Part shown: positions 7,570-30,161 of the stretch, one piece after another
Layout: each line of letters starts with the position of its first letter
Numbering within the stretch: position 1 is the stretch's first letter
From: Bacteroidales bacterium
Lineage (GTDB): Bacteria > Bacteroidota > Bacteroidia > Bacteroidales > UBA932
Assembly (NCBI GenBank): GCA_024402135.1
Contig: JAKSJN010000013.1
Coordinates: forward strand, 1-64,000
Direction of reading: 5' to 3'
DNA: 64,000 bases
Notes under the pieces: generated by a model
Told to the model about the DNA's origin: nothing
The model's input: only the letters and a program-made list of their open reading frames with translations
The model's database searches: none
Program-made: the position numbers and the translations under genes

Positions 7570-7574
7570 ATCCG

Positions 7575-8732
7575 CTAGAGCTTGATAAGGCCAAGACCAG
7601 GACGGTCAGGAAGAATCATCTTGCCGCCTTCCACTACCATTCCTTCGAATCTGTCGTTCGCGATGAGCAGGTTTCCGTCGAGATCGGCGAAATCGATTAC
7701 AGGACTGAGATGCGCTGCTGCAGTTGTGGCGCAGCTGGTCTCGGTCATACAGCCGACCATGACCTTCATGCCCTCGGCACGGGCGTATGTCATCATCTTG
7801 CGGGCCTCGAGAAGGCCTGTACACTTCATGAGCTTGATGTTGATTCCGGTGAATGCGCCCTTGAGGTGAGGAATGTCACAGAGACGCTGGCAGCTTTCGT
7901 CGGCGAAGATAGGGAGCGGGCTGCGCTCGGTCACCCATGCGATGTCGTCAATCTGCTCCTTAGGCATAGGCTGCTCGACCATGACGATACCCTGTTCCTT
8001 GAGCCAGAGGATCTCGTCGAGGGCCTTGTATTTGTCCTTCCAGCCCTGGTTGGCATCCACTGCCAGAGGGAGGTCAGTGACCGAGCGGATGGTACGGATC
8101 ATCTCCTCGTCATTCTCCAGGCCTACCTTGACCTTGAGGATGTTGAACTTCTCCGCGCACTCGAGGGTCTTCTCGCGGACCACGTCAGCCGTATCGATTC
8201 CGATGGTGAATGTGGTGCTGCCGGCCTTGGCTGCGTCATAGCCCCAGATGCGATAGAGAGGCTGGCCAAGAAGCTTGCCGACAAGGTCATGGAGAGCGAT
8301 GTCGATTGCGGCCTTTGCAGGTGCGTCACCCTCGGAGATGCTGTCCACGTATGCCATGATGTCCTCGATGCAGAAAGGATCCGCAAACTGCTCAAGATCC
8401 ACCTTTGCGAGGAATGCGCATACGCTCTCGACAGTATGGCCAAGATATGGAGGCATGGATGCCTCGCCGTAGCCGATGAATCCGTCATACTCGATCTCGA
8501 CCTGTACGTCAGGTGTAGTGGTACGTGAATATGATGCCACGGTGAATGTATGTGCAAGCTTAAGTTCGTATGGCTCGTATCTGAGTTTCATCCTGGCGGT
8601 AGCGCCATGGGTATTGATGCTGTAAGGTCGTGGAAGGCTGTCACCTTTGTCCAGGATAGGACGGCAGGAATAGAGAAGTCCGGAGCCTGCGGTGGCAACG
8701 GCTGCGGTCTTGAGGAAATCTCTTCTGTTCAT
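7575..8732 (-). CDS. Tat-exported dipeptide epimerase (enolase superfamily)
   Basis: Member of the muconate-lactonizing/enolase superfamily, 385 aa from the ATG that opens a Tat signal (RRDFLK at residues 3-8, then a hydrophobic stretch ending LLYSC). Epimerase features are present: the KVKVG lysine pair, metal ligands in DANQGW, VEQP and ADES, the second catalytic lysine in KLMKCTG, and GCMTET and DLDGNLL near the C-terminus. This is the pattern of L-Ala-D/L-Glu type dipeptide epimerases, which recycle murein peptides. Acid-sugar dehydratases use a His-Asp dyad instead, so I reject fuconate dehydratase. It is the first gene of the operon. An in-frame N-terminal extension of 45 residues would cross the promoter and hide the Tat signal. 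Confidence 0.87.
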   Translation of the reverse strand: MNRRDFLKTAAVATAGSGLLYSCRPILDKGDSLPRPYSINTHGATARMKLRYEPYELKLAHTFTVASYSRTTTPDVQVEIEYDGFIGYGEASMPPYLGHTVESVCAFLAKVDLEQFADPFCIEDIMAYVDSISEGDAPAKAAIDIALHDLVGKLLGQPLYRIWGYDAAKAGSTTFTIGIDTADVVREKTLECAEKFNILKVKVGLENDEEMIRTIRSVTDLPLAVDANQGWKDKYKALDEILWLKEQGIVMVEQPMPKEQIDDIAWVTERSPLPIFADESCQRLCDIPHLKGAFTGINIKLMKCTGLLEARKMMTYARAEGMKVMVGCMTETSCATTAAAHLSPVIDFADLDGNLLIANDRFEGMVVEGGKMILPDRPGLGLIKL

Positions 8733-8782
8733 ATGATTGCGTTTTTGTTGTTTCAAGCTTGTGGCTGAAGGCAGCCATCTTC

Positions 8783-8790
8783 CAAAGTTA
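8783..8790 (-). promoter_or_regulatory. -7 box of the leftward seven-gene operon
   Basis: TAACTTTG on the minus strand fits the Bacteroidota -7 consensus TAnnTTTG. A TTG lies about 22 nt further upstream (8813-8815). Transcription would begin near 8776, giving a leader of about 45 nt before the epimerase ATG. Confidence 0.6.
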
Positions 8791-8806
8791 TGGAATAATT
8801 CCATAA
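8788..8806. promoter_or_regulatory. 19-bp palindrome between divergent promoters, candidate operator
   Basis: TTATGGAATAATTCCATAA is two perfect 9-bp arms around one central base. It overlaps the upstream end of the leftward -7 box and lies about 17 nt upstream of the rightward -7 box, so a bound dimer could affect both operons. No regulator gene sits beside it. Confidence 0.5.
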
Positions 8807-8836: not shown

Positions 8837-9463
8837 ATGAAACCTTTTTTCCCCTTATTGGCAGCAATGCTGGCGGTCTGTGTCAATGCAGCGGCTCAGC
8901 AAAGCCGAAGCTATGACGATTTCATGGCCGAAGCCGGAGAGAACTCCGTGCTTTACCGTGGACACCGCGCAATGCAATATGAGTTCCGCTGTAACGGACA
9001 TCAGTATTGGGGCAGCCGCAGCTTCGAACGCGGATCGGTCGAATTCAACGGCAAATCCTATGACAACATACTGCTCAACATCGACTGCTGCAACCAGGAT
9101 CTGGTCGCAATCTTTGACAATGAGCTCGCGGCGGTCGTTCTGGATCATGAACATATCGGTGAAATCCATATAGGAGACCGGCGTTTCGCGCTGGCGGAAA
9201 GCATCAGTCCGATATTCCCTACGCGCTTCGTCGAGATCTTCGACGCTGATGGAATCCAGGTTTACCGTTGCAGGAAAAAGGATGTGAAGAAATCGTCCGA
9301 CGCGCCCAACCCGTCAAAGCTGGGATACGAGGTTGACAATTTCAACTTCAATGTCAACCAGTACTTCATGTTACAAGAGTCATGGTACACAGAGCGCAAG
9401 GGTGAACTGCGCAGGATAGGACGCCGGAAGGCACTGAAGATGATTGGAAATGAGACACGTTAG
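8837..9463 (+). CDS. Secreted protein of unknown function, cassette copy 1 (protein A1)
   Basis: 208-aa protein with a Sec signal peptide (MKPFFPLLAAMLAVCVNAAA, cleavage near residue 21). I recognise no family. It is homologous to the protein at 14932-15567: both share LxRGxRAxQY, YNG/CNGHxxW, a SGxVxYNG-like strand, LMNID/LLNID and a basic end (LRRIGRRKALK/LRKIGRSKASK). It is mostly predicted beta-strand and probably periplasmic or surface. The ATG at 8837 is preferred over an in-frame TTG at 8828, which lies inside the promoter box. Its last 14 nt overlap the TonB receptor gene, so the two are translationally coupled. Confidence 0.85.
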   Translation: MKPFFPLLAAMLAVCVNAAAQQSRSYDDFMAEAGENSVLYRGHRAMQYEFRCNGHQYWGSRSFERGSVEFNGKSYDNILLNIDCCNQDLVAIFDNELAAVVLDHEHIGEIHIGDRRFALAESISPIFPTRFVEIFDADGIQVYRCRKKDVKKSSDAPNPSKLGYEVDNFNFNVNQYFMLQESWYTERKGELRRIGRRKALKMIGNETR

Positions 9464-12092
9464 GACCATTGTTGCGGCGCTTGCCTGCCTGATCATCACC
9501 ATGTCGACAGCTTCGGCCCAGCAGGTCGAAGTCAAGCGCGTTTCCTCTGACTCGCTGGTCCGATTCATCAAGACCAGGTTCAACGAGAAGGTCTATTTTC
9601 TCAAGGATGCCGAAGACGTTTCGGACTACAGCGTCAGCGCCGACAGCAAGGATTTCGTCAAGGCAGCCCTCTCCGAACTCGGAGCAAAGGGCTACACTGT
9701 ATCCAGCTACGGCGGCTCCTGGTTTGTAAGCCGAGGAAACCCTATATCAGCCAGCCTGCCTGTCGGATTCTTCGACCAGGACAATTCCGACATCGTCTAT
9801 GGCGACGGAGAAGAAAGCAATACCCAGGTGACATTCCAGAACAAGATCTACGAGATCGGAGAATACAAGGAAGGACGCAAGGGGAAGGCATACGTCCAGG
9901 GATATGTGCGCGATGCGGCGTCCGGCGAGCCTATAGTCGGCGTGGCCGTCCACAGTCCGGACGGAACGGCATACTCCGTGACCGACTCCTACGGATTCTA
10001 CCGGCTCCAGCTTCCTGTCGGAGACAACCGGCTGAACTTCAGCGGATATTCCCTCGAAGAACTCCAGCTCAACCTGCTCGTCCATGACGACGGCGGGCTG
10101 GACGTGACCATGAAGGAGATGGTCACCGCCCTCAATGGTGCAGTCGTTTCCGCCGAAAGTGTATCCCATCACCGCGATTCCCGCATGGGCATCGAGAAGG
10201 TCCGCATGAACACCATACGAAAGATTCCTTCAGCTTTCGGCGAGGCTGACGTCATCAAGGCCGTGCTCACCCTCCCTGGTGTCAAGACAGTCGGCGAGGC
10301 GTCCAGCGGTTTCAACGTCCGCGGCGGCGCAGTGGACCAGAACCTTATCCTGTTCAACGACGGAACAGTATTCAACCCAAGCCATCTGTTCGGCATTTTC
10401 TCGGCATTCAACCCCGACATCGTGAACGAGATGGAGCTTTACAAGAGCTCGATCCCGGCAGAATTCGGAGGCCGTATTTCTTCTGTGCTTGACATCCATA
10501 GCAAGGAAGGCAACAGCAACAAGCTCACCGGAACCATCGGACTGGGAATGCTTACCAGCAGTTTCAGCCTGGAAGGTCCAATAGCAAAGGGCAAGACCAC
10601 CTTCGTGCTCGGCGGCCGTACCACATACAGCAACTGGATACTCAACATGCTTCCAGAGAACAGCGGATACAATGGAGGAAAGGCTTCGTTCAGCGACATC
10701 AACGCGGGAATAACCCACAGGTTCAACGAGCGGAACACCCTCCACGCCAACGTCTACTGGTCGGCAGACAGGTTCTCTTTCAGCGGAGACACCACCTTCC
10801 GCTATTCCAACCTCAACGCTTCTGTCAAGCTGCGCAGCCAGCTCAGCCTGCGCCATACAATGACCCTGAGCGGCGGAATGGACGGCTATTCGAACAGGCT
10901 TGACGACAACTGCAACCCATATACCGCATATACCCTCGCGACCGATGTGCGACAGGCACACGCCAAGGCCGACTTCAGCTACAGCATCGGACAGGCGCAC
11001 AAGCTCTCTTACGGAGCACAGGGCATATTCTATGACATGAACCCAGGGACCACGACAGCCATCGGCGAGAAATCCTTCTTTGAGGGTGCCGCCCTTGACA
11101 AGGAGAATGCTGTCGAAGCCGCTGCGTACGCAGGTGATACCTGGTCTCCCGACCGCAGGGTGGCAGTGGAATACGGAACACGTTTCACTGCCTTCCTGAA
11201 CCATGGAACGACGTACATGGCCCCTGATTTCCGCATTTCCGGCAAGTACTCGTTCCGCGACAACCTGAGCCTCAAGGCGGGATTCAACAGCATGCACCAG
11301 AACATCCATATGCTTACCAACTCGTCTTCCATTTCCCCAATGGACACATGGAAGATCAGTGATGAGCGCATCCGTCCGCAGAGCGGCTGGCAGGCTGCAT
11401 CCGGACTCTACTGGACCGTCGCAGACAACAAGGTGGATCTCTCGCTTGAGGGCTATTGGAAGCAGATGTCCCGCTATCTGGACTACAAGTCAGGAGCGCA
11501 GCTCAGCATGAACCCCAACCTCGCGGACGACCTCGTGGAGACACGTGGAAAGGCCTATGGAGTCGAGGTCATGGCACGCAAGACCCTTGGCAAGCTCAAC
11601 GGATGGGTATCATACACTTGGTCACGCGCACTGCTCCAGGAGATGGAGGACCGCGGCATCGAGACCATCAACGGCGGCAAGTGGTACAACGCCCCACATG
11701 ACAAACCGCATGACTTCAAACTGGTCGGCAACTATATGTTCACCCACCGATACAGCCTTTCGATCAACATCGACTATTCGACCGGACGCCCTGTCACCAT
11801 CCCTATCGCCAAGTACTGGTACAAGGAGGGGTGGCGTCTTGCATATTCCGAGCGTAACAGCTATCGCATCCCTGACTATTTCCGAATGGACATGGCATTC
11901 AACATAGACCCGGGACACTACCTCAAGCAGCTGGCACATATGACCGTGACACTCGGTGTCTATAACGTCACCGGCAGGAAGAATGCATATTCGATTTATT
12001 ATACAAACCATGGAGGAGCAAGCATAAACGGATACAAGATCTCCGTCTTCGCCTGTCCAGTTCCGTACATCAACCTTAACCTGAAATTCTGA
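9450..12092 (+). CDS. TonB-dependent outer-membrane receptor with STN domain, cassette copy 1 (B1)
   Basis: Outer-membrane transporter, 880 aa. Order: signal peptide (to about 25); STN-like domain (about 26-95; RFIKTRFNEKVYFLKD); carboxypeptidase-like beta-sandwich (about 149-230; GYVRDAASGEPIVG); plug (about 245-350; GFNVRGGAVDQNLILFND, GRISSVLDIHSKEG); 22-strand-type barrel to a terminal Phe. The start at 9450 gives a clean signal peptide; an in-frame TTG 6 nt earlier is less likely. It overlaps A1 by 14 nt and the DUF4249 gene by 1 nt. STN domains often signal to anti-sigma factors, but no such gene is next door. There is no SusD partner; the DUF4249 lipoprotein takes that place. The ligand is unknown, with peptide or protein guessed from the S9 peptidase at the operon end. 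Confidence 0.92.
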   Translation: MRHVRTIVAALACLIITMSTASAQQVEVKRVSSDSLVRFIKTRFNEKVYFLKDAEDVSDYSVSADSKDFVKAALSELGAKGYTVSSYGGSWFVSRGNPISASLPVGFFDQDNSDIVYGDGEESNTQVTFQNKIYEIGEYKEGRKGKAYVQGYVRDAASGEPIVGVAVHSPDGTAYSVTDSYGFYRLQLPVGDNRLNFSGYSLEELQLNLLVHDDGGLDVTMKEMVTALNGAVVSAESVSHHRDSRMGIEKVRMNTIRKIPSAFGEADVIKAVLTLPGVKTVGEASSGFNVRGGAVDQNLILFNDGTVFNPSHLFGIFSAFNPDIVNEMELYKSSIPAEFGGRISSVLDIHSKEGNSNKLTGTIGLGMLTSSFSLEGPIAKGKTTFVLGGRTTYSNWILNMLPENSGYNGGKASFSDINAGITHRFNERNTLHANVYWSADRFSFSGDTTFRYSNLNASVKLRSQLSLRHTMTLSGGMDGYSNRLDDNCNPYTAYTLATDVRQAHAKADFSYSIGQAHKLSYGAQGIFYDMNPGTTTAIGEKSFFEGAALDKENAVEAAAYAGDTWSPDRRVAVEYGTRFTAFLNHGTTYMAPDFRISGKYSFRDNLSLKAGFNSMHQNIHMLTNSSSISPMDTWKISDERIRPQSGWQAASGLYWTVADNKVDLSLEGYWKQMSRYLDYKSGAQLSMNPNLADDLVETRGKAYGVEVMARKTLGKLNGWVSYTWSRALLQEMEDRGIETINGGKWYNAPHDKPHDFKLVGNYMFTHRYSLSINIDYSTGRPVTIPIAKYWYKEGWRLAYSERNSYRIPDYFRMDMAFNIDPGHYLKQLAHMTVTLGVYNVTGRKNAYSIYYTNHGGASINGYKISVFACPVPYINLNLKF

Positions 12093-13249
12093 TGAAGAGA
12101 CTGATTTATCTTATAACCGCCATGCTGGCTGCAGTCTCATGCGTCTACCCGTTCACGGCAGACATCAGCTCAGTCAATATCGACTCGATAGTCATCGAAG
12201 GAGACATAATAATAGGCGGAAGCAGCCATTTCAAGATGTCAGAGATGCTCGCTATCGAAGGGGAAAGCAACCTGCAGCCGCAGGACGTACCTGCAACCTT
12301 CACCGTCGAAGATGACAAGGGCGGCAAATACCAGGCAGATGCGGACGGCAACCTCGACCTCACATCCGCACCGTCAGACAGAAGATACAGGCTCCGCGCC
12401 GTCAACCATAACAGCAGCAAGGAATATGTCTCTTCATGGCAGACCATCATGGAAACATGCGAGATCGACAGCCTGTCCTTCATGCCGAATGAATCAAACG
12501 GAACCCTGGATCTCCGCATCAGCCTTCACGGACCTGACGATTATCGCCTGTACCAGTTCATAATGGACGAGGTCTGGGAGTACAAGGCCTTCTATCGCGC
12601 CACCCACTACTACGTTGAACCTTCCAGCTCCCTTCCACTGGATTACAGGAACTCTGGCATGATCGTTCCTTTTGAAAATGGAGAGAACACCTACTATTGC
12701 TGGAAGAGGCGCAACGTACCGACGCTGAACGTGATCAGCAACGAGGATCTCAGCGAGAACAGGCTCGTGAACGAAAAGATCCACGCAGTTCCGAATTACG
12801 ACAACAAGCTGTCATACATCTACTGTCTGAACGTATCGGCAATGGCCATCAGCCAGGAGCATCTCTCGTATCTGAAGCACCTCAACGAAGTATCCCACTA
12901 CACCGGAAGCCTCTTCTCTCCAAATCCAAGCGAGATGCGTGGAAACATACGATGCGTCAGCGATACAACCGAGTTCGTGCTCGGTTACATCGGAGCCGGC
13001 AAACTGTCTTCGTCCAGGGTATTCTACTACAATGACAAAGTTCATTTCTTCAAGCCCGTATATGAAGCTCACAGCAGCAAGATCATCGCAAAGAGAGACT
13101 GGTACAGATCCTGGAAATTCGATGGGCTGCTTCCTATGAACGGTGATCCTGTCCAGGGCTATGAATGGGCAGAAAGCCGCTGCATAGACTGCAGGCTTAT
13201 GGGCGGAAACAAGGAGAAGCCTGAATACTGGCCGAACAATCACAATTAG
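12092..13249 (+). CDS. DUF4249 lipoprotein, cassette copy 1 (C1)
   Basis: Lipoprotein (AAVSC, Cys17), 385 aa, of the DUF4249 type that commonly follows TonB receptors with carboxypeptidase-like domains. The N-terminal half looks Ig-like (IDSIVIEGDIIIG; TFTVEDDKGG). The C-terminus carries the conserved pattern CxDCRxxGGNKxKPxxWxNNH, also seen in the second copy. It probably sits at the outer membrane and helps the receptor bind its ligand; that role is inferred from position. Start and receptor stop share one base (TGATG). Confidence 0.88.
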   Translation: MKRLIYLITAMLAAVSCVYPFTADISSVNIDSIVIEGDIIIGGSSHFKMSEMLAIEGESNLQPQDVPATFTVEDDKGGKYQADADGNLDLTSAPSDRRYRLRAVNHNSSKEYVSSWQTIMETCEIDSLSFMPNESNGTLDLRISLHGPDDYRLYQFIMDEVWEYKAFYRATHYYVEPSSSLPLDYRNSGMIVPFENGENTYYCWKRRNVPTLNVISNEDLSENRLVNEKIHAVPNYDNKLSYIYCLNVSAMAISQEHLSYLKHLNEVSHYTGSLFSPNPSEMRGNIRCVSDTTEFVLGYIGAGKLSSSRVFYYNDKVHFFKPVYEAHSSKIIAKRDWYRSWKFDGLLPMNGDPVQGYEWAESRCIDCRLMGGNKEKPEYWPNNHN

Positions 13250-13255
13250 GAGGAC

Positions 13256-14935
13256 ATGAAAAAGATTGCATCTATCATATTGTTCTGTCTCATCTCCGCA
13301 TATGTCCATGCCGGTGACGTAGCGGAGAGGGTCTATCTAGCCACCGACAGACAGGTCTATGTCGCAGGAGAAAGCCTTCGCTGTTCGGCATGGTGCCTGG
13401 ACTCAAGGGAGCCTGTCCTTTCCGAGGTCAGCGCGATAGCGTACGTTGAACTGCATTCCTCTGACGGTCTGGCATGCACCGGCCGCATAGCTCTCAGCAA
13501 TGGTCGTGGAAGCGCTGAGATAGAGCTGCCGAAGAGCCTGCCCAGCGGCAATTACAAGCTCTTCGCCTATACGGCTCTGGAACTTGACAGCAGGGATTCT
13601 CATCCGGCTGATGGAGCGAAGCTTATTTCCATAATCAATCCATACAGCACACTCCGGTCCGGTGTACGCATCGCCAGCGAAAGCGAGTATGCTTCAGCTC
13701 TCGGCACAAAAGCATCAACAGCCGGGACAGGCATAGCCAAGGCATCCATCCCAACGACTGCCAAGGCCGGCAGCAAGACCCTTATCACACTGTCATCCAC
13801 AAAGGACGCCAGCCTTGCCGTTTCTGTATATCGCAAGGACGGAATAATCGAGCCGGCATCAGTGGGAATGGCGGGATTCCTGGATGTCAGCAGCTACGAC
13901 GGAGACATTTTCGGAGACAGGGTTGCCGAATACGAAGGAGAGATCATAAAAGCAAGGATCGCAGGCCTTGACGCTGACGGCCTGAACCATAGGAGCGGTC
14001 AGTTCGCATTCATTTCCGCTCCTGGAGAGAAGTCTGACATATACTCCGCCAAGATGAACAACGAGGGTCAGCTCCGTTTCTTCACCAACAATATCTATGG
14101 CCACAAGGACCTTATCTGCGAGATAGAAGGTGAACCTGCGGACTCTCCCGCCCACCTTGAAATCCTGTCACCATTTGCAGACATAGACCCGGGCACGATT
14201 CCGGAATTGCTTCTCAGCGAATCGACCGCCAACGACATCACTCAGCGCGCATATTCAGCCCAGATTGAAAAGGCCTTCAGATCGGACACCCTGTTCCAGT
14301 TCCTGCCCAAGCGTGAAAACCTGCTGTTTCCAGAGCAGGCAAAGACGTATATCCTGGACGACTACACCCGCTTCCCCCAGATGGAAGAGGTCATAACTGA
14401 GTACATCCCGGAACTCAGGGCGAGAAAGGACGATGGGAAAGGCGTAGTCCTGGTCCTGATGGAAGACTCATACAGAAACAGCTACTTCTCTCGCGGAACA
14501 GCCCTGCTGATGGTTGACGGAGTCCCTATCTTCGACCATGAGAAAGTCCTGAATTACGACCCTCTTCTGGTCGAAAGCATCAACATCTATCAGTCCCGTT
14601 ACTTCATCGGCTCACGCTATTACGAAGGAATCGTGAACTTCGTGACCTACAAACACAATCTCCCGTCGATGAAGTTCAACCCGAACGTCCGCATCATCGA
14701 CTTCCAGGGAGCATCCTACCCCACAGCATACACATGCGAGGGAATCGACGCTGACAACTACCCGGACTTCCGCATGACCGCATACTGGCATCCGGTCATC
14801 GAGATCAAGGGCGGCGAGGAAAGGCCTGTCAACGTCAGGATTCCCGAGGTTCCCGGCGATTATGAAGTCAAGATCGAAGGACTTGCAGCCGATGGCAGTC
14901 CTGTCATGGAACATTATGGATTCACAGTCTTATGA
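13256..14935 (+). CDS. MG2-like/plug-like secreted protein, cassette copy 1 (D1)
   Basis: Secreted protein, 559 aa, signal peptide to about residue 19. Residues about 24-110 (ERVYLATDRQVYVAGE ... LPSGNYKLFAYT) resemble the MG2 domain of alpha-2-macroglobulins. Residues about 413-470 (ALLMVDGVPIFD, LLVESINIYQSRYF, GIVNFVTY) resemble the end of a TonB-receptor plug, but no barrel follows. The middle is beta-rich and unassigned. There is no thioester motif, so it is not a trapping macroglobulin. A good RBS (GGAGG) lies in the 6-nt gap after C1, and its last 4 nt overlap A2. It may work with the B receptor as a periplasmic or surface accessory; the function is unknown. Confidence 0.83.
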   Translation: MKKIASIILFCLISAYVHAGDVAERVYLATDRQVYVAGESLRCSAWCLDSREPVLSEVSAIAYVELHSSDGLACTGRIALSNGRGSAEIELPKSLPSGNYKLFAYTALELDSRDSHPADGAKLISIINPYSTLRSGVRIASESEYASALGTKASTAGTGIAKASIPTTAKAGSKTLITLSSTKDASLAVSVYRKDGIIEPASVGMAGFLDVSSYDGDIFGDRVAEYEGEIIKARIAGLDADGLNHRSGQFAFISAPGEKSDIYSAKMNNEGQLRFFTNNIYGHKDLICEIEGEPADSPAHLEILSPFADIDPGTIPELLLSESTANDITQRAYSAQIEKAFRSDTLFQFLPKRENLLFPEQAKTYILDDYTRFPQMEEVITEYIPELRARKDDGKGVVLVLMEDSYRNSYFSRGTALLMVDGVPIFDHEKVLNYDPLLVESINIYQSRYFIGSRYYEGIVNFVTYKHNLPSMKFNPNVRIIDFQGASYPTAYTCEGIDADNYPDFRMTAYWHPVIEIKGGEERPVNVRIPEVPGDYEVKIEGLAADGSPVMEHYGFTVL

Positions 14936-15567
14936 AACCATTCCGTATATACACATTGATTCTATTGATCCTGTCCTTGCCGGCAGTCGCCCAACAGCGT
15001 ACCGACAAGGATTATTCGGATTATATTTCCGATGCCCAGGAAAACGCGCTGCTGTTCCGGGGAAGGAGAGCGTTGCAGTACGACTCGAAATATAACGGTC
15101 ATCCTTTCTGGAGCCGCGAAGAGTACATCTCAGGAACTGTCACCTACAACGGCAGGGAGTATTACGATGTTCTCATGAACATCGACGCCCACACCCAGGA
15201 ACTGCTCGTGAAGAAAGACGAAATCGCCTCTGCCATAAGGCTTGAGAGGGAATATGTCAGCGCTCTTACCATAGGCGAAACCAGCTATGCCAATCTCATC
15301 CTCAAAGGTGTGGACAAAGCCGAAGAGGGTTTCTACGAGGTTCTCAAGGACGGCAGCCAGCCGGTATACAGGAGAGTGGCCAAGGTATACATCGAACCGC
15401 CGCTCCCTATCCATGAAGGAGACCTGGGCTATCCTGTTTCATCATTCAACCCACGCTACTACGACTACTTCGAAAAACGCACAGCTCTGTTCACGGTAAA
15501 GGACGGACGTCTGCGCAAGATAGGCAGGTCCAAGGCGTCAAAACTTGCAGGCTATGAAATCAGGTAA
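14932..15567 (+). CDS. Secreted protein of unknown function, cassette copy 2 (protein A2)
   Basis: 211-aa paralogue of A1 with signal peptide (MKPFRIYTLILLILSLPAVA). Shared features are ENALLFRGRRALQY, a YNGHPFW turn, LMNID and a basic C-terminus. It lacks the CC pair present in A1. It begins inside the D1 stop (ATGA, 4-nt overlap) and ends 14 nt inside the second receptor gene, the same overlap length as in copy 1. Function unknown. Confidence 0.85.
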   Translation: MKPFRIYTLILLILSLPAVAQQRTDKDYSDYISDAQENALLFRGRRALQYDSKYNGHPFWSREEYISGTVTYNGREYYDVLMNIDAHTQELLVKKDEIASAIRLEREYVSALTIGETSYANLILKGVDKAEEGFYEVLKDGSQPVYRRVAKVYIEPPLPIHEGDLGYPVSSFNPRYYDYFEKRTALFTVKDGRLRKIGRSKASKLAGYEIR

Positions 15568-18211
15568 GATACTGCTTCTAGGCATGGTGCTGCTCGTCCT
15601 GTCCATGACAGGGCTGAAGGCCGCAGCTCCCCAGAGCAATCCTTTGGACATAAAGAGAGCCGACTCCGAGACATTGGTACGCTTCCTGCGAAAGGAGTTC
15701 AATGAGACCATCTACTTCCTGAAAGACGAAAAGGACGTCGCTTCGTTCACCATATCGGCAGAGCGCAGTGCTTTCCTCAGCAAGGCGATGGACGAGCTTC
15801 GCGAGGTCGGCTACAATGTTTACAACTATGACGGTGCCTGGTTCATCTACCATGGCCGCATCATCAGCCAGTCTCTTCCTTTCGACTATTTCGCAGAGGC
15901 CGCTGAAACTGAAACCGTGCTGGAGGATGAAAGCACCCAGGCCACCTTCCAGAACAAAATCTACGAGATCGGTGACCGCAAGGAAGGACGCAAGGGCAAG
16001 GCATTTGTCCATGGATATGTCCGTGACGCCGTATCCGGAGAGCCTGTCATCGGTGCCGCCGTACATACTCCTGACGGTACTGCATACGCAGTGACGGACT
16101 CGTACGGATTCTACCGTCTCCAGCTTCCTATCGGAAACAATGTCCTCAAATTCAACGGCTATTCGCTCGAGGAGCTTGAACTGAACCTTCTGGTCAACGA
16201 CGACGGCGGACTGGACGTCGCCATGAAGGAGATGGTCACCACACTTACCGGAGCCATCGTTTCCGCCGAGGGCGTATCACATCACCGTGATTCCCGCATG
16301 GGCATCGAGAAGGTGCGCATGAACACCATACGAAAGATACCGACAGCATTCGGAGAGGCTGACGTTCTCAAGGCCGTACTGACCCTTCCAGGAGTCAAGA
16401 CAGTCGGAGAGGCATCCAGCGGCTTCAACGTACGAGGCGGTTCTGTCGACCAGAACCTCATCCTCATGAACGACGGAACCATTTTCAATCCGAGCCATAT
16501 GTTCGGAATCTTCTCCGCATTCAATCCCGACATCGTCAGCGAGATGGAGCTTTACAAGAGCTCTATTCCAGCCGAGTTCGGAGGCCGAATCTCATCAGTT
16601 CTCGATGTACGCAGCAAGGAAGGAAACAGCAAGAAGATCTCCGGCACGCTCGGTCTCGGCCTACTCACCAGCAGTTTCAGCCTGGAAGGGCCTATCATAA
16701 AGGACAAGACAACCTTCATCATCGGCGGACGAACCACCTATTCCGACTGGATGCTCAACTACCTGCCTGAGAACAGCGGCTATTCAGGAGGATCGGCATC
16801 GTTCTATGACGTGAACTTCGGTCTCAGCCACAAGTTCAACGAGAGGAACGACCTGCATCTGAATGCGTACGCATCGAATGACCAGTTCTCTTTCAGCACC
16901 GACACGACTTTCCACTACTCGAACTTCAATGCATCGATGAAGTTCCGCAGCCAGCTTAGCCAGAAGCTGACCATGGCTATCGTCGGAGGTGTTGACTCAT
17001 ACGGCAACGTACTTGACGACAAGACCTACGGCAACGGAGCATTCTCACTCAGCACTGATGTAAGCCAGGCGTACGGCAAGCTCACCTTCGACCATCAGGT
17101 CAACGACCATCACAAGCTGAGCTACGGTGGTCAGGGCATTTCCTACCTGATGAATCCGGGCATCATGACACCATACGGCGAAGAGTCGACAATCCAGGAG
17201 ACAGCGCTGGACGAGGAGACCGCGATCGAGGCTTCCCTGTTCGCAAGCGAAAGCTGGAGCCCAGGATCCAAGAAACTTGCATTCGAGCTTGGAACCAGAC
17301 TCAACATGTTCATCATGCCTGAAGGTGATCCATACAGATCTGCCGACCTGAGACTGTCTGGAAAATACTCTTTCCTGGACAATCTCAGCATCAAGGCAGG
17401 TCTCAACACGATGCACCAGAACATACACATGATCACCAACTCGTCATCTATCTCGCCTATGGACACCTGGAAACTCAGCGATGAGCGCATACGTCCACAG
17501 TCAGGCTGGCAGGGCGCCGGCGGTCTGTACTGGACAATCGCTGACAACAAGGTCGATCTGTCCCTGGAAGGCTACTGGAAGGAGATGTACCACTATCTGG
17601 ACTACAAGTCAGGTGCTCAGCTCAGCATGAACCCCAACCTCGCCGACGACCTCGTCGAGACCCAGGGAAAGGCTTACGGAGTCGAGTTCATGCTACGCAA
17701 GAACATCGGAAAGCTCAACGGATGGGTTTCCTACACATGGTCCCGCGCATTCCTGAAGGAGACCGAGGATCGTGGCTCCGAAACCATCAACAACGGTAAC
17801 TGGTACTGCGCCCCACACGACAAGCCGCATGATGTCAAGCTGGTCGGCAACTACAAGTTTACACATCGCTACAGCATGTCCGTTAACGTTGATTATTCAA
17901 CAGGACGTCCTGTAACCATTCCTATTGCCAAGTACTGGTATGACGGCGGCTGGAGACTCGCGTACTCGGAGCGCAATGGAAGAAGAATTCCTGACTATTT
18001 CCGCATGGACCTCGCATTCAACATCGAGCCAAGCCACTACCTCAGGAAGCTGACTCACATGACCGTCACCTTTGGAGTGTACAATGTGACCGGACGCAAG
18101 AACGCGTATTCTATCTATTACACATCTTCCGGCGGCACAAACATCAACGGATACAAGATTTCCGTATTCGCCACCCAGATCCCATATATCAACCTCAACA
18201 TGAAATTCTGA
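15554..18211 (+). CDS. TonB-dependent outer-membrane receptor with STN domain, cassette copy 2 (B2)
   Basis: 885-aa paralogue of B1 with the same domain order: signal peptide, STN-like domain, carboxypeptidase-like domain (GYVRDAVSGEPVIG), plug and barrel. The plug and the last third of the barrel are nearly identical to B1 (for example FNVRGGSVDQNLIL, SSSISPMDTWK, GYKISVFA). The centre of the barrel, about 455-575, differs strongly, with changed lengths and charges. This fits a duplicated transporter whose ligand-facing loops have diverged. Start at the ATG overlapping A2 by 14 nt; an in-frame TTG 9 nt upstream is disfavoured. Stop shares one base with the next ATG. Confidence 0.92.
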   Translation: MKSGKILLLGMVLLVLSMTGLKAAAPQSNPLDIKRADSETLVRFLRKEFNETIYFLKDEKDVASFTISAERSAFLSKAMDELREVGYNVYNYDGAWFIYHGRIISQSLPFDYFAEAAETETVLEDESTQATFQNKIYEIGDRKEGRKGKAFVHGYVRDAVSGEPVIGAAVHTPDGTAYAVTDSYGFYRLQLPIGNNVLKFNGYSLEELELNLLVNDDGGLDVAMKEMVTTLTGAIVSAEGVSHHRDSRMGIEKVRMNTIRKIPTAFGEADVLKAVLTLPGVKTVGEASSGFNVRGGSVDQNLILMNDGTIFNPSHMFGIFSAFNPDIVSEMELYKSSIPAEFGGRISSVLDVRSKEGNSKKISGTLGLGLLTSSFSLEGPIIKDKTTFIIGGRTTYSDWMLNYLPENSGYSGGSASFYDVNFGLSHKFNERNDLHLNAYASNDQFSFSTDTTFHYSNFNASMKFRSQLSQKLTMAIVGGVDSYGNVLDDKTYGNGAFSLSTDVSQAYGKLTFDHQVNDHHKLSYGGQGISYLMNPGIMTPYGEESTIQETALDEETAIEASLFASESWSPGSKKLAFELGTRLNMFIMPEGDPYRSADLRLSGKYSFLDNLSIKAGLNTMHQNIHMITNSSSISPMDTWKLSDERIRPQSGWQGAGGLYWTIADNKVDLSLEGYWKEMYHYLDYKSGAQLSMNPNLADDLVETQGKAYGVEFMLRKNIGKLNGWVSYTWSRAFLKETEDRGSETINNGNWYCAPHDKPHDVKLVGNYKFTHRYSMSVNVDYSTGRPVTIPIAKYWYDGGWRLAYSERNGRRIPDYFRMDLAFNIEPSHYLRKLTHMTVTFGVYNVTGRKNAYSIYYTSSGGTNINGYKISVFATQIPYINLNMKF

Positions 18212-19395
18212 TGAAACGACTTGCATTACTCTTGACAACGGGGCTCATGCTGGTTGCATGCATCTACCCGATAGACGATACTGAGGAGCTCACCGGATAC
18301 GAAGGTGTCGCAATCGAAGGAACCATCACCGTCGGCGCCGTATCTTCATTCGCGATGTATCCTCTCCAAGCCCTCAACTACGATGAAAATGAAGGCAAAG
18401 GAACAGTTTCCGCTTCCTTCACAGTCGAGGACGATATGGGGCATTCATGGCCAGGTACCCCTGACAGGAAGGGATGGTCTTCCGACCTGCAGGAAGCAGG
18501 AACTTCATTCGTGGATCTGACAGATGCCGACCCTGCAAGGAAGTATCGTCTCCGCGCCAGGAACCTTGAAACAAACGAATCCTATGTATCGGAATGGGTG
18601 GAGGTTGTGCCGGCCTGTACGATCGACTCGGTTAATTTCATCAAGAACATCGATGAAGATGAACTCCTCATCAATCTCAACGTACACGGCAACGGCGGTG
18701 CCGGCTGCTACCGTCTCATGACCCGTGAGGACTGGGAATACAAGGCTGACTACTCGGCAGCACTGGTCTACATCCCGAACGACAAGAAGAGCCGTGACCC
18801 TGGAGTGATGGTAAATTCTGGAGGCCAAGGTCCGCTTTATTACTGCTGGAAGAAAGCAATAGACTCCAAGCTCAACATCTTCGACACACGTACCCTTACC
18901 TCCGACGAAGTCACCCGGCCACTGATGAAGATTCCGCGCACAGACGAACGTCTCGGATACGTCTACAGCATAACAGCTGGTGTTATGAGCATTTCTGAAG
19001 AACACTACGCATATCTGGAACATCTCGCGACCGTATCGGATTACAACGGAAGCCTCTTCTCCCCTAACCCTAGCGAGATGCACGGCAACATACGCAACGA
19101 GAGCGACTCCACACATTTCGTTGCAGGTTTCATCGGCGCCGGCACACTGGTTCAGCAGCGCTTATTCTATGAAAACGAGAAAGAGTACTACTACATCCCA
19201 GGAAAGAGGAACGTCTCCGAGCTGGAATCGGTCCAGGCGCAAGATTGGCAGTACGCTTACTGGTATGAATCTAAGATGCCTGTCTACTACACTATAACGG
19301 AAGGATATCTTTGGACAGAAAAGAGATGCGTCGATTGCAGATACAAGGGCGGAAACAAGGACAAGCCAGACTTCTGGATCAACAACCATGAATAG
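18211..19395 (+). CDS. DUF4249 lipoprotein, cassette copy 2 (C2)
   Basis: 394-aa lipoprotein (LVAC, Cys17), paralogue of C1. It keeps the motifs VAIEGTITVG, ASFTVEDDMG, YNGSLFSPNPSEMHGNI and the C-terminal RCVDCRYKGGNKDKP. The central segment that would face a ligand is much less alike than the termini. It starts on the last base of the receptor stop codon and is followed after 9 nt by D2. Expected to be an outer-membrane partner of B2. Confidence 0.88.
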   Translation: MKRLALLLTTGLMLVACIYPIDDTEELTGYEGVAIEGTITVGAVSSFAMYPLQALNYDENEGKGTVSASFTVEDDMGHSWPGTPDRKGWSSDLQEAGTSFVDLTDADPARKYRLRARNLETNESYVSEWVEVVPACTIDSVNFIKNIDEDELLINLNVHGNGGAGCYRLMTREDWEYKADYSAALVYIPNDKKSRDPGVMVNSGGQGPLYYCWKKAIDSKLNIFDTRTLTSDEVTRPLMKIPRTDERLGYVYSITAGVMSISEEHYAYLEHLATVSDYNGSLFSPNPSEMHGNIRNESDSTHFVAGFIGAGTLVQQRLFYENEKEYYYIPGKRNVSELESVQAQDWQYAYWYESKMPVYYTITEGYLWTEKRCVDCRYKGGNKDKPDFWINNHE

Positions 19396-19404
19396 GAGGG
19401 CTCT

Positions 19405-21096
19405 ATGAAACTTAGAACAATAATAAGCATATTCCTGACCGCAGCATCACTGGTGGCCAATGCCCAAAGCAGGGGTGAAAGGGTCTATATCTCCACCGAC
19501 CGACAGATATATATCGCCGGCGAGAACATCCGATGTTCAGCATACTGTATCGGCAACGACGGCCGGCTGTCGAATTTCAGCATGACAGCCTATCTTGAAC
19601 TGCACTCCAGTTCCGGCATGGCAGCCAACGGTCGTGCCGCCCTTCTCGGCGGCAGAGGCTGCGCCGAAATAGAGATTCCACGCAGCCTTCCTACCGGCAA
19701 CTACAGCCTCATGGCCTATACCAAGGTCGGTTTGATGCGCGAGAACTGCAACCCTGCGGCCGGTTCAAGAATCATCACCATCATAAACCCTTATGGCAGC
19801 GAGCGTGTGGACAATGGCGTCAAGATAGTCGATGCCGGTGCCTATGCGGCCATCAGGGCAGCCCAGCCGGAAACCGCAGGCAACATTTCAGCAAGCCTTG
19901 ACGGGGTGAAGCGTGCCGGTTCGACAATGGCTGTGCAACTAACCAACAACGGTTCATCCGAGGCTTCACTGGATGTCTCCATCGTGCGCATGGATGGCAT
20001 AGCGGAGCCTGACAACCGAGGTATGGCTGGTTTTCTTGACGCTGACGCAAAGGGACCCGCCCTCGCAGGAGCGATGACACCAGACTACGAAGGAGAAGTC
20101 ATCAACGCACGCGTGGCAGGTATTCCTGAATCCGAGGTCGGCATGATGGAAGGAAGGATCGCATTCATATCCGCTCCTGGCGACAAGTCCGATGTCTATT
20201 CCAGCACCATCGCAGCTGACGGCACAATGAGCTTCTACACCTCAAACATCAACGGCAACAAGGATCTCATCTGCGAGATAGAGGATAAACTTGAAGGCTC
20301 TCCAGCCCACATCGAGATTGTGTCGCCATTCGTCAATGTAAATCCTGGCGAAATCCCTGTCCTGCCCCTCTGCGAAGGCATGCGCAGTGACATATTGGCT
20401 CGCAGCATGGCAGCACAGCTCAGCGCGAGTTTTGCCAGCGAGACAATCAGTGACTATCTACAGATACGTCCAAGCCTGCTGTTCAGCGGACAATGTAGAT
20501 CATATGTCCTTGACGACTATACACGCTTCCCTACCATGGAAGAAGTCATGGTCGAGTTCATACCGGAACTAAGGATCAGGAAGGGTGACGAGGGCAAGCG
20601 CCAGATCAACGTTCTGGTAAATGATTCATACAAGAATCCTGAGTTTTCCCAGGGAACAGCGCTCACTCTTGTCGACGGTGTCCCGATCTTCGACTACGAA
20701 CAGATATTGGCATATGACCCGCTGCTCGTCCAGACTGTGGATATATATACCTCACGCTTCTTCATCGGTGCGCGGTACTATGATGGAATCGTCAATTTCG
20801 TCACTTACGCACACAACCTCCCATCCATGAAGTTCACCCCCGACGTCCGTGTGGTATCATTCAAGGGAACTGCCCTTCCAGGAATCCTCAACGGCATGTC
20901 AATCGACTCCGAGAACGGTCCTGACTACCGCCAGACTGCATTCTGGCATCCTCTCGTAAAGCTTAAGGCAGGAGAATCGGACAGCTATGAATTTCACGTT
21001 CCTGGAGTTCCTGGCGATTATTTATTGAAGATCGAAGGCATGGATTCTCAGGGAAATCCTATATTTGCAACCCAGAAAATCACAATCACAAAATAA
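19405..21096 (+). CDS. MG2-like/plug-like secreted protein, cassette copy 2 (D2)
   Basis: 563-aa paralogue of D1. Signal peptide to about residue 20; MG2-like N-domain (ERVYISTDRQIYIAGE; IPRSLPTGNYSLMAYT); unassigned middle with AFISAPGDKSDVY and NGNKDLICEIED; plug-like part at about 416-470 (LTLVDGVPIFD; GIVNFVTYAHNLPSM); short C-terminal Ig-like tail (VPGVPGDYLLKIEG). The gap after C2 contains a GGAGGG ribosome site. Its stop shares a base with the S9 peptidase ATG. As with D1, no barrel or thioester is present. Confidence 0.83.
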   Translation: MKLRTIISIFLTAASLVANAQSRGERVYISTDRQIYIAGENIRCSAYCIGNDGRLSNFSMTAYLELHSSSGMAANGRAALLGGRGCAEIEIPRSLPTGNYSLMAYTKVGLMRENCNPAAGSRIITIINPYGSERVDNGVKIVDAGAYAAIRAAQPETAGNISASLDGVKRAGSTMAVQLTNNGSSEASLDVSIVRMDGIAEPDNRGMAGFLDADAKGPALAGAMTPDYEGEVINARVAGIPESEVGMMEGRIAFISAPGDKSDVYSSTIAADGTMSFYTSNINGNKDLICEIEDKLEGSPAHIEIVSPFVNVNPGEIPVLPLCEGMRSDILARSMAAQLSASFASETISDYLQIRPSLLFSGQCRSYVLDDYTRFPTMEEVMVEFIPELRIRKGDEGKRQINVLVNDSYKNPEFSQGTALTLVDGVPIFDYEQILAYDPLLVQTVDIYTSRFFIGARYYDGIVNFVTYAHNLPSMKFTPDVRVVSFKGTALPGILNGMSIDSENGPDYRQTAFWHPLVKLKAGESDSYEFHVPGVPGDYLLKIEGMDSQGNPIFATQKITITK

Positions 21097-23183
21097 TGAA
21101 AAGAATCATTCTCATCTGTGCTGCCCTCGGCATGTTCGCCACAGCAGCAAACGCCCAGAGCTTCGATGCAAAATGGGACAAGGTAAAGGATGCATCTTCC
21201 CTCAGGGAACTCGTCCTTCATGGTGCTGTCACCCCTCAGTGGAACCAGGACGGCACATTCGGCTACACCGTCCGCGAAGAGAACGGAATGCAGAGCTACA
21301 TCGTGAACCCTGCAACCAAGACCAAGACCGCAGTTGAGTCTCTTCAGCCAGCTGAAAGACGTCCATACAACTGGCGTGGAAATGCACAGGCAGCAGTCTC
21401 TCCTGACGGAGACTGGGAGGCATACATCCTCGACAACAATGTCTGGATCGCTCCTTATGAAGGATCACAGTCAGAGGCTCCCGCAGCAATGCCACGTGTT
21501 CCACAGGCTCAGACCCGCCGTCCAGGCGCTGTCCAGCTCAGCTTTGACGGAACCACCCAGTTCCCTTACAATGCAGTAATCTGGTCTCCAGACAGCAAGA
21601 AGATTGCTGCCACCAGGTTCGAGGTTGTCCAGGAGCGTCAGATTCCGCTCATCGCATCTTCTCCAGAAGACCAGATCCAGCCAAAGCTCCGCTGGCTCGA
21701 CTATGCAAAGCCAGGTGACCGCCTTCCACAGGAAGAGGTCGCTCTCTTTGACGCTGTAGCAAAGAAGCAGATCGCTGTCGACAATCGTCCATTCAGCAAC
21801 CAGTTCAACCTCCGCTTTGGCCAGTGGTCTCCTAAGAGCGACTACTTCACCTTCGAGTACAACCAGCGCGGCCATCAGCTCTACCAGCTCGTAGCCGTTG
21901 ATGCGACCACCGGAAAGACCCGCATCGCCGCTGAAGAGAAGACCAACACCTTCGTTTACTATAACGAGTGCTACCGCTACTATTTCGAGGACGGCAAGCG
22001 TGCCCTCTGGGCATCAGAGCGCGACGACTGGCGTCACCTCTACATGGTTGACCTCTACACCGGAGCCATCAGCCAGATCGACAAGGGCGAGTGGAACATC
22101 CGCACCGTATATTACGTAAACGAGAAGGAGGGATACCTCCTTGCAGATGCCAACGGTCTCCATGCAATCAACGAGAAGGGCGGCAAGCCACAGGGCGAAG
22201 ACCCATACAACAAGCATCTCATCCGCCTGGACTTCAACGGCAAGGTTACCGACCTCACTCCAGAGAACGCCAACCATACCATCAGCCTCAGCCCGGACGC
22301 AAAGTACTTCGTCGACAGCTACTCACGTCCAGACCTTCCTCCTACATCAGTGCTCCGCGCCCAGGACGGAACCATCGTCATGGAGCTCGAGAAGGCTGAC
22401 ATCAGCCGCCTCCTCGCAACCGGTTACACCATGCCTGAGGTATTCGTCGCAAAGGGCCGTGACGGCAAGACCGACATCTGGGGTACCATTTTCCGCCCTG
22501 CAAACTTCAAGGCCAAGGGCAAGTACCCAGTCATCGAATACATCTACGCAGGTCCTCATGACAACCATGTAGTAAAGGATTTCGAGGCATATACCCGTAA
22601 CAGCTTCCTCCAGGGCCTTGGTTTCGTAGTCGTAACTATCGACGGTATGGGTACCGACAACCGCAGCAAGTCATTCCAGGACGTTGCATTCCGCAACCTC
22701 AAGGACGCCGGTTTCCCTGACCGTATCCTCTGGATGCAGGCTGCCCAGAAGCAGTACAAGTATCTTGATCTCGACAAGGTTGGTATCTATGGATATTCAG
22801 CAGGTGGCCAGAACACACTCTCAGCCCTCCTGTTCCATCCTGAGTTCTACAAGGTCGGCGTATCAATGTGCGGCTGTCACGACAACCGTATGGACAAGAT
22901 CTGGTGGAATGAGCAGTGGATGGGCTATCCTATCGGACCATGGTATGACGAGAGTTCCAACGTTGTAAACGCTCACCTCCTCCAGGGTGACCTCCTCATC
23001 ATGAACGGTGAACTTGACGACAATGTTGACCCTACCTCTACCCTTCAGGTCGTAAATGCTCTCTTCAATGCCAACAAGGACTTCAGCCAGTTCTACCTCC
23101 CAAGCCACACCCACAACATGGGTGACATGTGGGTAACCCGCCAGGCATTCAAGTACTTCTACGAAAAGATCATGGTGAAGTAA
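21096..23183 (+). CDS. S9 family peptidase, dipeptidyl-peptidase IV-like
   Basis: Exported serine peptidase of the prolyl-oligopeptidase/DPP IV clan, 695 aa, signal peptide MKRIILICAALGMFATAANA. An N-terminal beta-propeller is followed by an alpha/beta-hydrolase domain. The nucleophile is Ser568 in GYSAGG; the acid is Asp641 in GELDDNVDP; the base is His673 in SHTHNMGD. It closes the nine-gene operon, overlapping D2 by one base. It most likely trims dipeptides from peptides in the periplasm, and its place here is the main clue that the duplicated receptors handle peptides. Codons are more strongly biased towards CTC/AAG/ATC than in the receptor genes, suggesting high expression. Confidence 0.92.
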   Translation: MKRIILICAALGMFATAANAQSFDAKWDKVKDASSLRELVLHGAVTPQWNQDGTFGYTVREENGMQSYIVNPATKTKTAVESLQPAERRPYNWRGNAQAAVSPDGDWEAYILDNNVWIAPYEGSQSEAPAAMPRVPQAQTRRPGAVQLSFDGTTQFPYNAVIWSPDSKKIAATRFEVVQERQIPLIASSPEDQIQPKLRWLDYAKPGDRLPQEEVALFDAVAKKQIAVDNRPFSNQFNLRFGQWSPKSDYFTFEYNQRGHQLYQLVAVDATTGKTRIAAEEKTNTFVYYNECYRYYFEDGKRALWASERDDWRHLYMVDLYTGAISQIDKGEWNIRTVYYVNEKEGYLLADANGLHAINEKGGKPQGEDPYNKHLIRLDFNGKVTDLTPENANHTISLSPDAKYFVDSYSRPDLPPTSVLRAQDGTIVMELEKADISRLLATGYTMPEVFVAKGRDGKTDIWGTIFRPANFKAKGKYPVIEYIYAGPHDNHVVKDFEAYTRNSFLQGLGFVVVTIDGMGTDNRSKSFQDVAFRNLKDAGFPDRILWMQAAQKQYKYLDLDKVGIYGYSAGGQNTLSALLFHPEFYKVGVSMCGCHDNRMDKIWWNEQWMGYPIGPWYDESSNVVNAHLLQGDLLIMNGELDDNVDPTSTLQVVNALFNANKDFSQFYLPSHTHNMGDMWVTRQAFKYFYEKIMVK

Positions 23184-29281: not shown

Positions 29282-30157
29282 ATGAAAACAAGAATTGCAA
29301 CGATCGTATCCCTATGCCTCGCTATCCAATTCGCAGTACATGGACAGACGCTGGAGACATCCAGCGCGAGGTACAACGACACCAATTATGCTCTATATCT
29401 TGACAGCCAGGCTTATTCGGTGACCCCATTGGACACATCGGTCTTCTCTGTGACCTATGATCTGGCAATCATGGTCGATACGCTCAAACGGGAGACCTTC
29501 AACTCCATGTATATCCTCCTGGTCGGGAGTCATGTCAACAAGTTCCTGCCATTTGCGAAGTTCACCTATGATAGGTACACCAGGAAAAGCCCTTATAATT
29601 TCGGAGGGGACATGATCCATAACCAGCACCATGTCTTTTACTATGAGGCAATTTATCAGGACAGGCGAACTGGAATGACAACAATCACAGAGAGGCTCTG
29701 CGAGGATGACTTCATCACCACCGAGGATACTCCAGTCCAGGAATGGACGATCACAAGTCATAGAAAGGACATAGGGGAGTATGAGTGCAACCTGGCTGAA
29801 TGTGACTTCAGAGGACGCCACTACTATGCATGGTACGCCGAGGACATCCCCATGCCATACGGGCCCTGGAAACTGGGTGGCCTGCCGGGGCTGATAGTGT
29901 CCGCATATGACTCCGACCATCAGTACGAATACTCCATGGTTTCGGTAGAGCAGTCCCTATGGCCAATATTCAGAACTGATTACAACTATATCGAAGCCGA
30001 CAGGAGGAGACTAAATAGACAGGTCAACGAGATTCTGCACAAACCACTGGTCTATATGGATAAACACTTCCATCTGACCACGAGAAGGGTCGATCCTGGA
30101 AGTCTATTCAAGGAAAGGGACCTCGTCTATCAGTATGACGCCATCGAAAAGGATTGA
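29282..30157 (+). CDS. GLPGLI family protein
   Basis: 291 aa, signal peptide MKTRIATIVSLCLAIQFAVHG. The family-defining motif is present: GPWKLGG followed by GLPGLI (residues 194-205), then VSAYDSD. The length is typical. The function of GLPGLI proteins is unknown; they are secreted or periplasmic, found only in Bacteroidota as far as I know, and often sit next to TonB receptors with carboxypeptidase-like domains, as here. It is 4 nt from the receptor start, so they are coupled. Confidence 0.92.
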   Translation: MKTRIATIVSLCLAIQFAVHGQTLETSSARYNDTNYALYLDSQAYSVTPLDTSVFSVTYDLAIMVDTLKRETFNSMYILLVGSHVNKFLPFAKFTYDRYTRKSPYNFGGDMIHNQHHVFYYEAIYQDRRTGMTTITERLCEDDFITTEDTPVQEWTITSHRKDIGEYECNLAECDFRGRHYYAWYAEDIPMPYGPWKLGGLPGLIVSAYDSDHQYEYSMVSVEQSLWPIFRTDYNYIEADRRRLNRQVNEILHKPLVYMDKHFHLTTRRVDPGSLFKERDLVYQYDAIEKD

Positions 30158-30161
30158 AAGC

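Follow-up and report, generated by a model that had tools for sequence, protein, structure and literature searches.

A tandemly duplicated four-gene TonB-dependent receptor cassette in Bacteroidales, in which a small secreted protein may take the place of FecR at the receptor's STN domain

The closest described systems are TonB-dependent channels accompanied by a surface lipoprotein or by a signalling partner. In the SusCD, RagAB and BtuBG pedal-bin importers, SusD and BtuG are the surface lids of their channels (PMC10404256), and in BT2172/BT2173-type pairs a TonB-dependent receptor stands beside a DUF4249 protein (PMC11003636). In FecA/FecR-type transducers an STN domain lies ahead of the plug, and this type of signalling domain is described as not present in receptors that are not involved in signalling (PMC11637429). 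Here we analyse a stretch of 64,000 nucleotides (nt) from a Bacteroidales bacterium (contig JAKSJN010000013.1, positions 1 to 64,000; hereafter the window), in which a four-gene cassette occurs twice in tandem and encodes a small secreted protein (A), a TonB-dependent receptor with an N-terminal STN domain (B), a DUF4249 lipoprotein (C) and a protein with a barrel-less, plug-like domain (D). The cassette resembles the pedal-bin importers in combining a TonB channel with a surface lipoprotein lid, but its lid is a DUF4249 protein, two periplasmic-type proteins are added, and no enzyme or other neighbouring gene was found to be shared by the cassettes. Compared with the BT2172/BT2173 pair it adds A, D and an STN domain that has no FecR beside it, and its C protein is often longer, with a cysteine-containing tail; no mention of A or D was found in the accessible text of PMC11003636. 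B resembles FecA-type transducers in its STN domain ahead of the plug, but neither FecR nor a sigma gene lies next to the cassettes, A being found there instead. The cassette is thus of a known kind, a TonB channel with a surface lipoprotein, and its novelty lies in two parts of periplasmic type that have not been described before, and in an idea on the STN domain that can be put to the test. No description of such a module was found in the literature on DUF4249, BT2172/BT2173, fitness screens, STN, SusCD/RagAB and MG2/plug proteins, most subscription journals and preprints being outside reach.

Our preferred reading, to which we give an even chance, is that the locus encodes a tandemly duplicated four-protein TonB-dependent importer, in which B, A and D would form a stack and A would occupy the place of FecR at the STN domain. 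The features concerned are the following (aa, amino acids).

8837..9463, + strand: A1, secreted or periplasmic protein of an unnamed family, 208 aa (open reading frame)
9450..12092, + strand: B1, TonB-dependent receptor, 880 aa, with STN-like N-terminal domain, carboxypeptidase-regulatory-like domain, plug and barrel (Pfam; STN by profile)
9519..9749, + strand: STN-like domain of B1, approximate limits (alignment and profile)
12092..13249, + strand: C1, DUF4249 lipoprotein with cysteine-containing C-terminal tail, 385 aa (PF14054, E 1.3e-20; tail from alignment)
13256..14935, + strand: D1, 559 aa, with MG2, carboxypeptidase-regulatory-like and barrel-less plug-like domains and a weak hint of an Ig-like C-terminus
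14932..15567, + strand: A2, second A copy, 211 aa (33% identity to A1, E 4.5e-40)
15554..18211, + strand: B2, second TonB-dependent receptor, 885 aa (71% identity to B1; Pfam Plug above cut-off)
18211..19395, + strand: C2, second DUF4249 lipoprotein, 394 aa (PF14054, E 4.7e-19; 38% identity to C1)
19405..21096, + strand: D2, second D copy, 563 aa (50% identity to D1)
21096..23183, + strand: S9 family (DPP IV-like) peptidase, 695 aa, a lineage-specific neighbour (Pfam DPPIV_N, Peptidase_S9)

These nine open frames, in the order A1-B1-C1-D1-A2-B2-C2-D2-S9, occupy positions 8837-23183 of the same strand and contain no in-frame stops, and their successive junctions measure -14, -1, +6, -4, -14, -1, +9 and -1 nt. 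For these figures B1 and B2 are taken to begin at the ATG codons of 9450 and 15554, respectively; TTG starts further upstream would make the two A-B junctions -20 and -23. An earlier, sequence-only reading had described two tandem A-B-C-D sets, overlapping or at most 9 nt apart and followed by an S9 peptidase, and the open frames confirm this arrangement.

The association of the four genes is conserved. The D profile matched in 86 of 198 genomes of the order (E<=1e-6) and the A profile, A5, in 157 of 393. Sixty of the listed D places, fetched roughly by score, were combined with L004-L006 into a sample of 63 loci and 66 D genes, 55 of which had A, B and C all within 6 kb; 5 had only some of these partners and lay at contig or locus ends, and 6 had none (2 near ends and 4 inner, the latter encoding proteins of 817-880 aa from a longer MG2 family). 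A second sample of 60 loci was taken from the A matches (57 in genomes outside the D sample; 4 selected for long open frames), and 46 of its 64 A genes had B, C and D within 6.5 kb, while 7 had some partners and 11 had none (6 near ends, 5 inner); in the loci without B, C and D the A match was no stronger than E 3e-31. A and D thus proved to be regular companions of the receptor and its DUF4249 protein, in support of the sequence-only reading that they are parts of one system, and in these order-level samples neither family lies mostly away from such receptors. Among 247 genomes sampled across the phylum, A was found in 59 and D-profile matches in 98, many of the latter covering nothing but the MG2 part of long proteins. 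Of the 31 strongest D matches (the window's two included), 26 had an A gene within 10 kb on the same strand. Together, the order and phylum counts indicate that a D of this type usually implies A, while A belongs to a wider family. The module is widespread, occurring in many genera of the order Bacteroidales and in other families of the phylum. That A and D are standing parts holds for this subtype; DUF4249/TonB pairs without them also exist, and A and D therefore mark a subtype. Indeed, a search of the genome from which the window comes returned only the window's two A and two D genes, together with DUF4249 genes in four places elsewhere and another four related receptors, none of them accompanied by A or D.

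Cassettes differ in their gene order (ABCD, BCDA, or B-A divergent from C-D), and they often hold several C genes, up to five of them. Five DUF4249 genes stand in a row between B and D in L085 and L108, as if the ligand-binding lid had been multiplied. In the divergent layouts (L062, L063, L146 and L151) B-A lies on one strand and C-D on the other, so that B keeps A as its neighbour and D keeps C. In L079, L089, L090 and L095, D-like MG2 proteins of greater length (817-931 aa) have no A, B or C nearby and represent a related, wider family. A genes without B, C and D occur in L143, L145, L150, L152, L153, L155 and L156, in tandem in L143 and L155. The A gene of L153 lies beside genes that resemble, by eye, a response regulator and a kinase, and L154 has a similar layout, its 234-aa gene matching the A5 profile yet falling under the cut-off of the locus scan.

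The N-terminal domain of B is, on profile evidence, an STN domain. Pfam recognises STN in 21 of 95 cassette N-termini (E<=0.05) and in neither B1 nor B2 of the window. A profile of this domain matched, in the PDB, the signalling domain of the ferric-pseudobactin 358 receptor (2a02, E 6.6e-5) and the ferripyoverdine receptor (5odw, E 0.009), with weaker matches to HasR (E 0.19) and secretins, and hhalign aligned it to the STN of FecR-type receptors with a probability of 98.5%. The remainder of B is that of a receptor: CarbopepD_reg_2 and Plug are found by Pfam, the latter above cut-off in B2 and just below it in B1, and B aligns with its relatives through to the C-terminal F.

The distribution of this STN domain follows that of FecR and A. 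Complete receptor-like genes near both A and D numbered 96, of which 93 carry STN and 3 (L112_6, L114_13 and L117_1) do not. With the B profile these three reach 46-61 bits, whereas the 93 score 821 or higher; one of the three is SusC-like and the other two resemble it, and they are therefore other receptors. Four further genes (L069_4, L076_11, L109_2 and L165_7; 49-89 bits) were excluded from the count likewise, as were receptors shorter than 650 aa or cut by a locus end, and L192, which has no callable receptor. The STN-bearing cassette receptors of L085, L104 and L108 are not among the 93, their A or D lying beyond the distance limit or the contig. Among the 93, 43 come from loci outside the training set of the STN profile. 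No FecR or sigma profile match was found within 1.5 kb of any of these 93 receptors, all of which have a separate A, and a scan of the window's upstream neighbours revealed no FecR or ECF (extracytoplasmic function) sigma factor. DUF4249 receptors without A or D fell into two groups: nine had STN, eight of them with FecR alongside and the ninth standing second in tandem behind one of those eight, and 23 lacked STN, none of them having FecR. The N-terminal profile of two-component receptors was used in a trimmed form, since in its long form it reached into the next domain and called STN falsely in nine receptors of an earlier set and in L196-L198. STN is thus kept where there is a separate FecR or a separate A, and lost where there is neither or where A is in the same chain.

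This last situation concerns natural fusions. In L006, L038, L082, L113 and L114, A is joined to the N-terminal end of B, and none of these five fusions has STN (at most 2.0 bits, against 36-79 bits in four unfused relatives). On a tree of 65 receptors sampled from 130 and built by a quick method, the fusions occupy four positions (L038 grouping with L113), each beside an unfused relative; the fused/unfused label needs four changes, a number already required if one counts no branches but those whose support is 95 or more. Fisher tests gave 4e-5 for STN against FecR in an earlier count (7, 2, 0, 18) and 1.5e-8 for fused against unfused receptors, both of which overstate the case because the loci are related; four independent fusion events against four relatives give 0.03. 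In L115 and L116, from two genomes of one family, A is instead joined to the C-terminal end of D, and the L116 receptor retains STN. The N-terminus of a TonB-dependent receptor faces the periplasm. A, being joined to it, is therefore periplasmic as well, and so is D, which can share a chain with A. That A is the partner of the STN domain would follow naturally from this pattern of STN, FecR and A.

As for A itself, no credible known family was found, only stray matches of single members in Pfam and NCBIfam. The window's two A proteins had no match of note in these databases (A2 against DUF1882, E 0.0015, is below the cut-off of that model), and no credible relative was found in the PDB (best E 0.14). 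A kinship of A with FecR, STN, CTD or D was considered and rejected by profile comparison, the hhalign probability against FecR being 0.4%. An A-profile match in L188 (E 7e-4) was dropped as spurious.

D, like A, belongs to an unnamed protein family. Judged by its domains, D is the periplasmic half of a TonB receptor minus the barrel, headed by MG2. Pfam found MG2 in 29 of 39 family members (E<=0.01), CarboxypepD_reg in 9 and Plug in 1 (E 0.0027); in the window's copies MG2 is weak and below the Pfam cut-off. Against the PDB, the D profile matched complement C3 around MG2 (positions 8-109, E 0.0018), NOMO2 (227-287, E 3e-4) and two plugs, those of a SusC homologue (397-473, E 5.5e-4) and of the colicin I receptor (375-462, E 0.0099), both where a plug would be expected. 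D thus resembles alpha-2-macroglobulin/C3 proteins and TonB-receptor plugs in its N-terminal and plug-like domains, respectively; it matches only the MG2 part of the former, and at 559 aa it has no room for a barrel. By hhalign, the middle part of D aligned with the CTD of B at 97.6%, and its plug part with B's own plug at only 8-16%, so that the plug call rests on the SusC-type and colicin I receptor plugs. SusC-like receptors beside the L117 and L118 cassettes also match this part of D, and none of 138 reversed proteins did so at E<=0.01. For an Ig-like C-terminus there were only faint hints, from weak Y_Y_Y and CopC matches.

C1 and C2 belong to DUF4249 (PF14054), above cut-off and with no SusD match, and carry a cysteine after a hydrophobic leader. 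A crude lipobox pattern was found in 39 of 73 C proteins, 4 of 54 A proteins and 4 of 64 D proteins, and the eight positions after the cysteine of C held, by a crude count, 1.8 acidic and 0.6 basic residues. Of 126 C proteins encoded near a D, 79 have a C-terminal tail of the CxDC type, as against 0 of 19 without D, a contrast in tail and length that is partly built in because the loci without A/D were selected by short open frames. No credible solved relative of C was found in the PDB.

The two copies of the cassette in the window share 33% (A), 71% (B), 38% (C) and 50% (D) protein identity, and this gene-by-gene resemblance points to a true duplication. The same double cassette with S9 was found in L003, from the metagenome-assembled genome of a horse-faeces Bacteroidales bacterium, while L004 and L005 hold single ABCD cassettes. 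Identities between the window and L003 are 75 and 68% for the two A proteins, 65 and 67% for C, 76 and 74% for D, 91 and 85% for B and 97% for S9; A and C are the fastest-diverging parts between copies and likewise between these orthologues. In the receptor tree, B1 of the window groups with B1 of L003, and B2 with B2, both forks having a support of 100 (SH-aLRT, the Shimodaira-Hasegawa-like approximate likelihood-ratio test), and L004 falls outside, which indicates one duplication predating the split of the window and L003. Between B1 and B2, identity is 29-57% per 50-column block in the first 150 columns, i.e., in the N-terminal STN region, against 78-94% in the CTD and plug, and a second low region (40-66%) lies in the barrel, at about residues 394-590 of B1. 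The suggestion of a whole-set duplication serving two ligands is therefore sustained as to the duplication; two ligands are no more than plausible, given where the copies have diverged most, namely in A and C and, within B, in the STN region and a stretch of the barrel.

From these data, we propose that the C lipoprotein would cap the extracellular face as a surface lid and capture the ligand, and that B would be the TonB-driven channel, import being the presumed direction. A would sit in the periplasm, docked on the STN domain of B, where the anti-sigma factor FecR sits in signalling receptors, and the periplasmic D protein, with its MG2, carboxypeptidase-regulatory-like and barrel-less plug domains, would be linked to A. 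The resulting B-A-D stack below the channel may either gate it or receive the cargo. The set was duplicated in an ancestor shared with the horse-gut relative, and the two copies then grew apart in A and C as well as in the STN domain and a stretch of the barrel. More tentatively, and with doubt outweighing confidence, A may represent a new class of STN ligand and STN may have been co-opted as a dock for a periplasmic transport subunit, being lost whenever A joins the receptor chain; D would then be a second plug that works together with that of the receptor and might fill or reset the channel or take over cargo.

Several observations weigh against this proposal. Only 26 of the 94 A matches in the phylum-wide sample had one of the 31 strongest D matches within 10 kb, and A thus also occurs alone. 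The five A-B fusions represent only four events, and three of their four unfused comparators belong to the loci from which the STN profile was built. Moreover, a fusion of A to B by deletion must remove the signal peptide of B and may remove STN mechanically, in which case STN would be dispensable and contact between A and STN not implied. FecR was sought within 1.5 kb of the receptors, and one may lie elsewhere in the genome. Finally, a mirror-tree analysis of 86 cassettes did not single out A and STN, with a partial r of 0.23 for A-STN, against 0.34 for A-C, 0.37 for A-D and 0.41 for C-D.

The stronger co-divergence of A with C and D, and of C with D, is what one would expect if A and D were periplasmic ligand handlers merely co-transcribed with B and C and forming no stable complex with the receptor. 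We consider this unlikely in view of the four separate A-B fusion events, the one lineage of D-A fusions and the strict STN pattern. The same STN pattern may be read in terms of regulation instead of transport, with A as a relay in the periplasm that would read the state of B by way of STN, and D acting downstream. Transducers do signal by means of STN, which non-signalling receptors are said to lack (PMC11637429), A and FecR never occur together at the 93 cassette receptors, and the A genes of L153 and L154, which have no B, C or D, adjoin the response regulator- and kinase-like genes mentioned above; but no sigma or anti-sigma match lies within 1.5 kb of those 93 receptors, no more than one of 63 cassette-adjacent genes can be FecR (Pfam), and no link of A or D to the inner membrane or DNA turned up, no dedicated membrane-anchor test having been made. 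A signalling module of this kind thus seems to us improbable, if worth keeping in mind.

Uptake of peptides or proteins, with processing by S9, had been suggested on the grounds of the peptidase at the end of the locus. The closest PDB relatives of S9 are bacterial DPP IV enzymes, its gene overlaps D2 by 1 nt, this place is kept in L003 at 97% identity, and RagAB is a known peptide transporter (PMC10404256). Among L003-L006, only the near relative L003 has S9, however, and no S9 relative was found by blastp (E<=1e-4) in 123 other loci; S9 was accordingly rejected as a functional part of the module. The neighbour scan covered 63 of 75 adjacent co-directional genes, touching 51 of 106 cassette loci, 12 genes having been set aside because their locus lacked a complete cassette, because a locus end truncated them or because they were duplicates. 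No Pfam peptidase family occurred in more than 2 of these 63 genes, and a fifth conserved gene was likewise rejected, no Pfam family at all occurring in more than 3 (SusD types, 3 of 63, at the top). The cassette therefore seems to travel alone, and since S9 is not conserved with it, the peptide hypothesis loses its main support and appears very unlikely. Slightly less credible still is a secretion or assembly machine, in which B would export or insert a protein and A and D would be periplasmic chaperones or cargo. Oar, a TonB-dependent transporter, is needed for protease secretion (PMC6434023), and D does resemble the N-terminal half of a TonB-dependent receptor, but DUF4249 lipoproteins pair with receptors even in the absence of A and D, as expected of a capture lid, and the A-B and D-A fusions argue against release of A. 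None of the nine window proteins matched C-terminal models of the type IX secretion system in NCBIfam (E<=1), a library that includes such models.

Around the two cassettes, a Tat-signal (twin-arginine translocation) MR_MLE enzyme and a transglutaminase-like protein are encoded on the minus strand at 6163-8795, divergent from A1, and this neighbourhood is largely retained in L003. Further along, a Porph_ging-family protein (29282-30157) immediately precedes and overlaps a receptor-size CarbopepD_reg protein (30135-32768), so that here too a small secreted protein and a putative receptor stand side by side.

The interest of these results lies in the standing parts that they add to an outer-membrane uptake system, namely A, for which no covering Pfam or NCBIfam model was found, and the barrel-less plug protein D. 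The natural A-B and D-A fusions hint that A and D dock beneath the channel. The cassette receptors as a class appear to contradict the description of STN as a domain of signalling receptors only (PMC11637429). If A does replace FecR at this domain, STN would not be solely a signalling device, and labelling every STN receptor a signal transducer would be wrong for the cassette class. The natural A-B fusions offer ready-made proteins with which this replacement of FecR by A could be tested.

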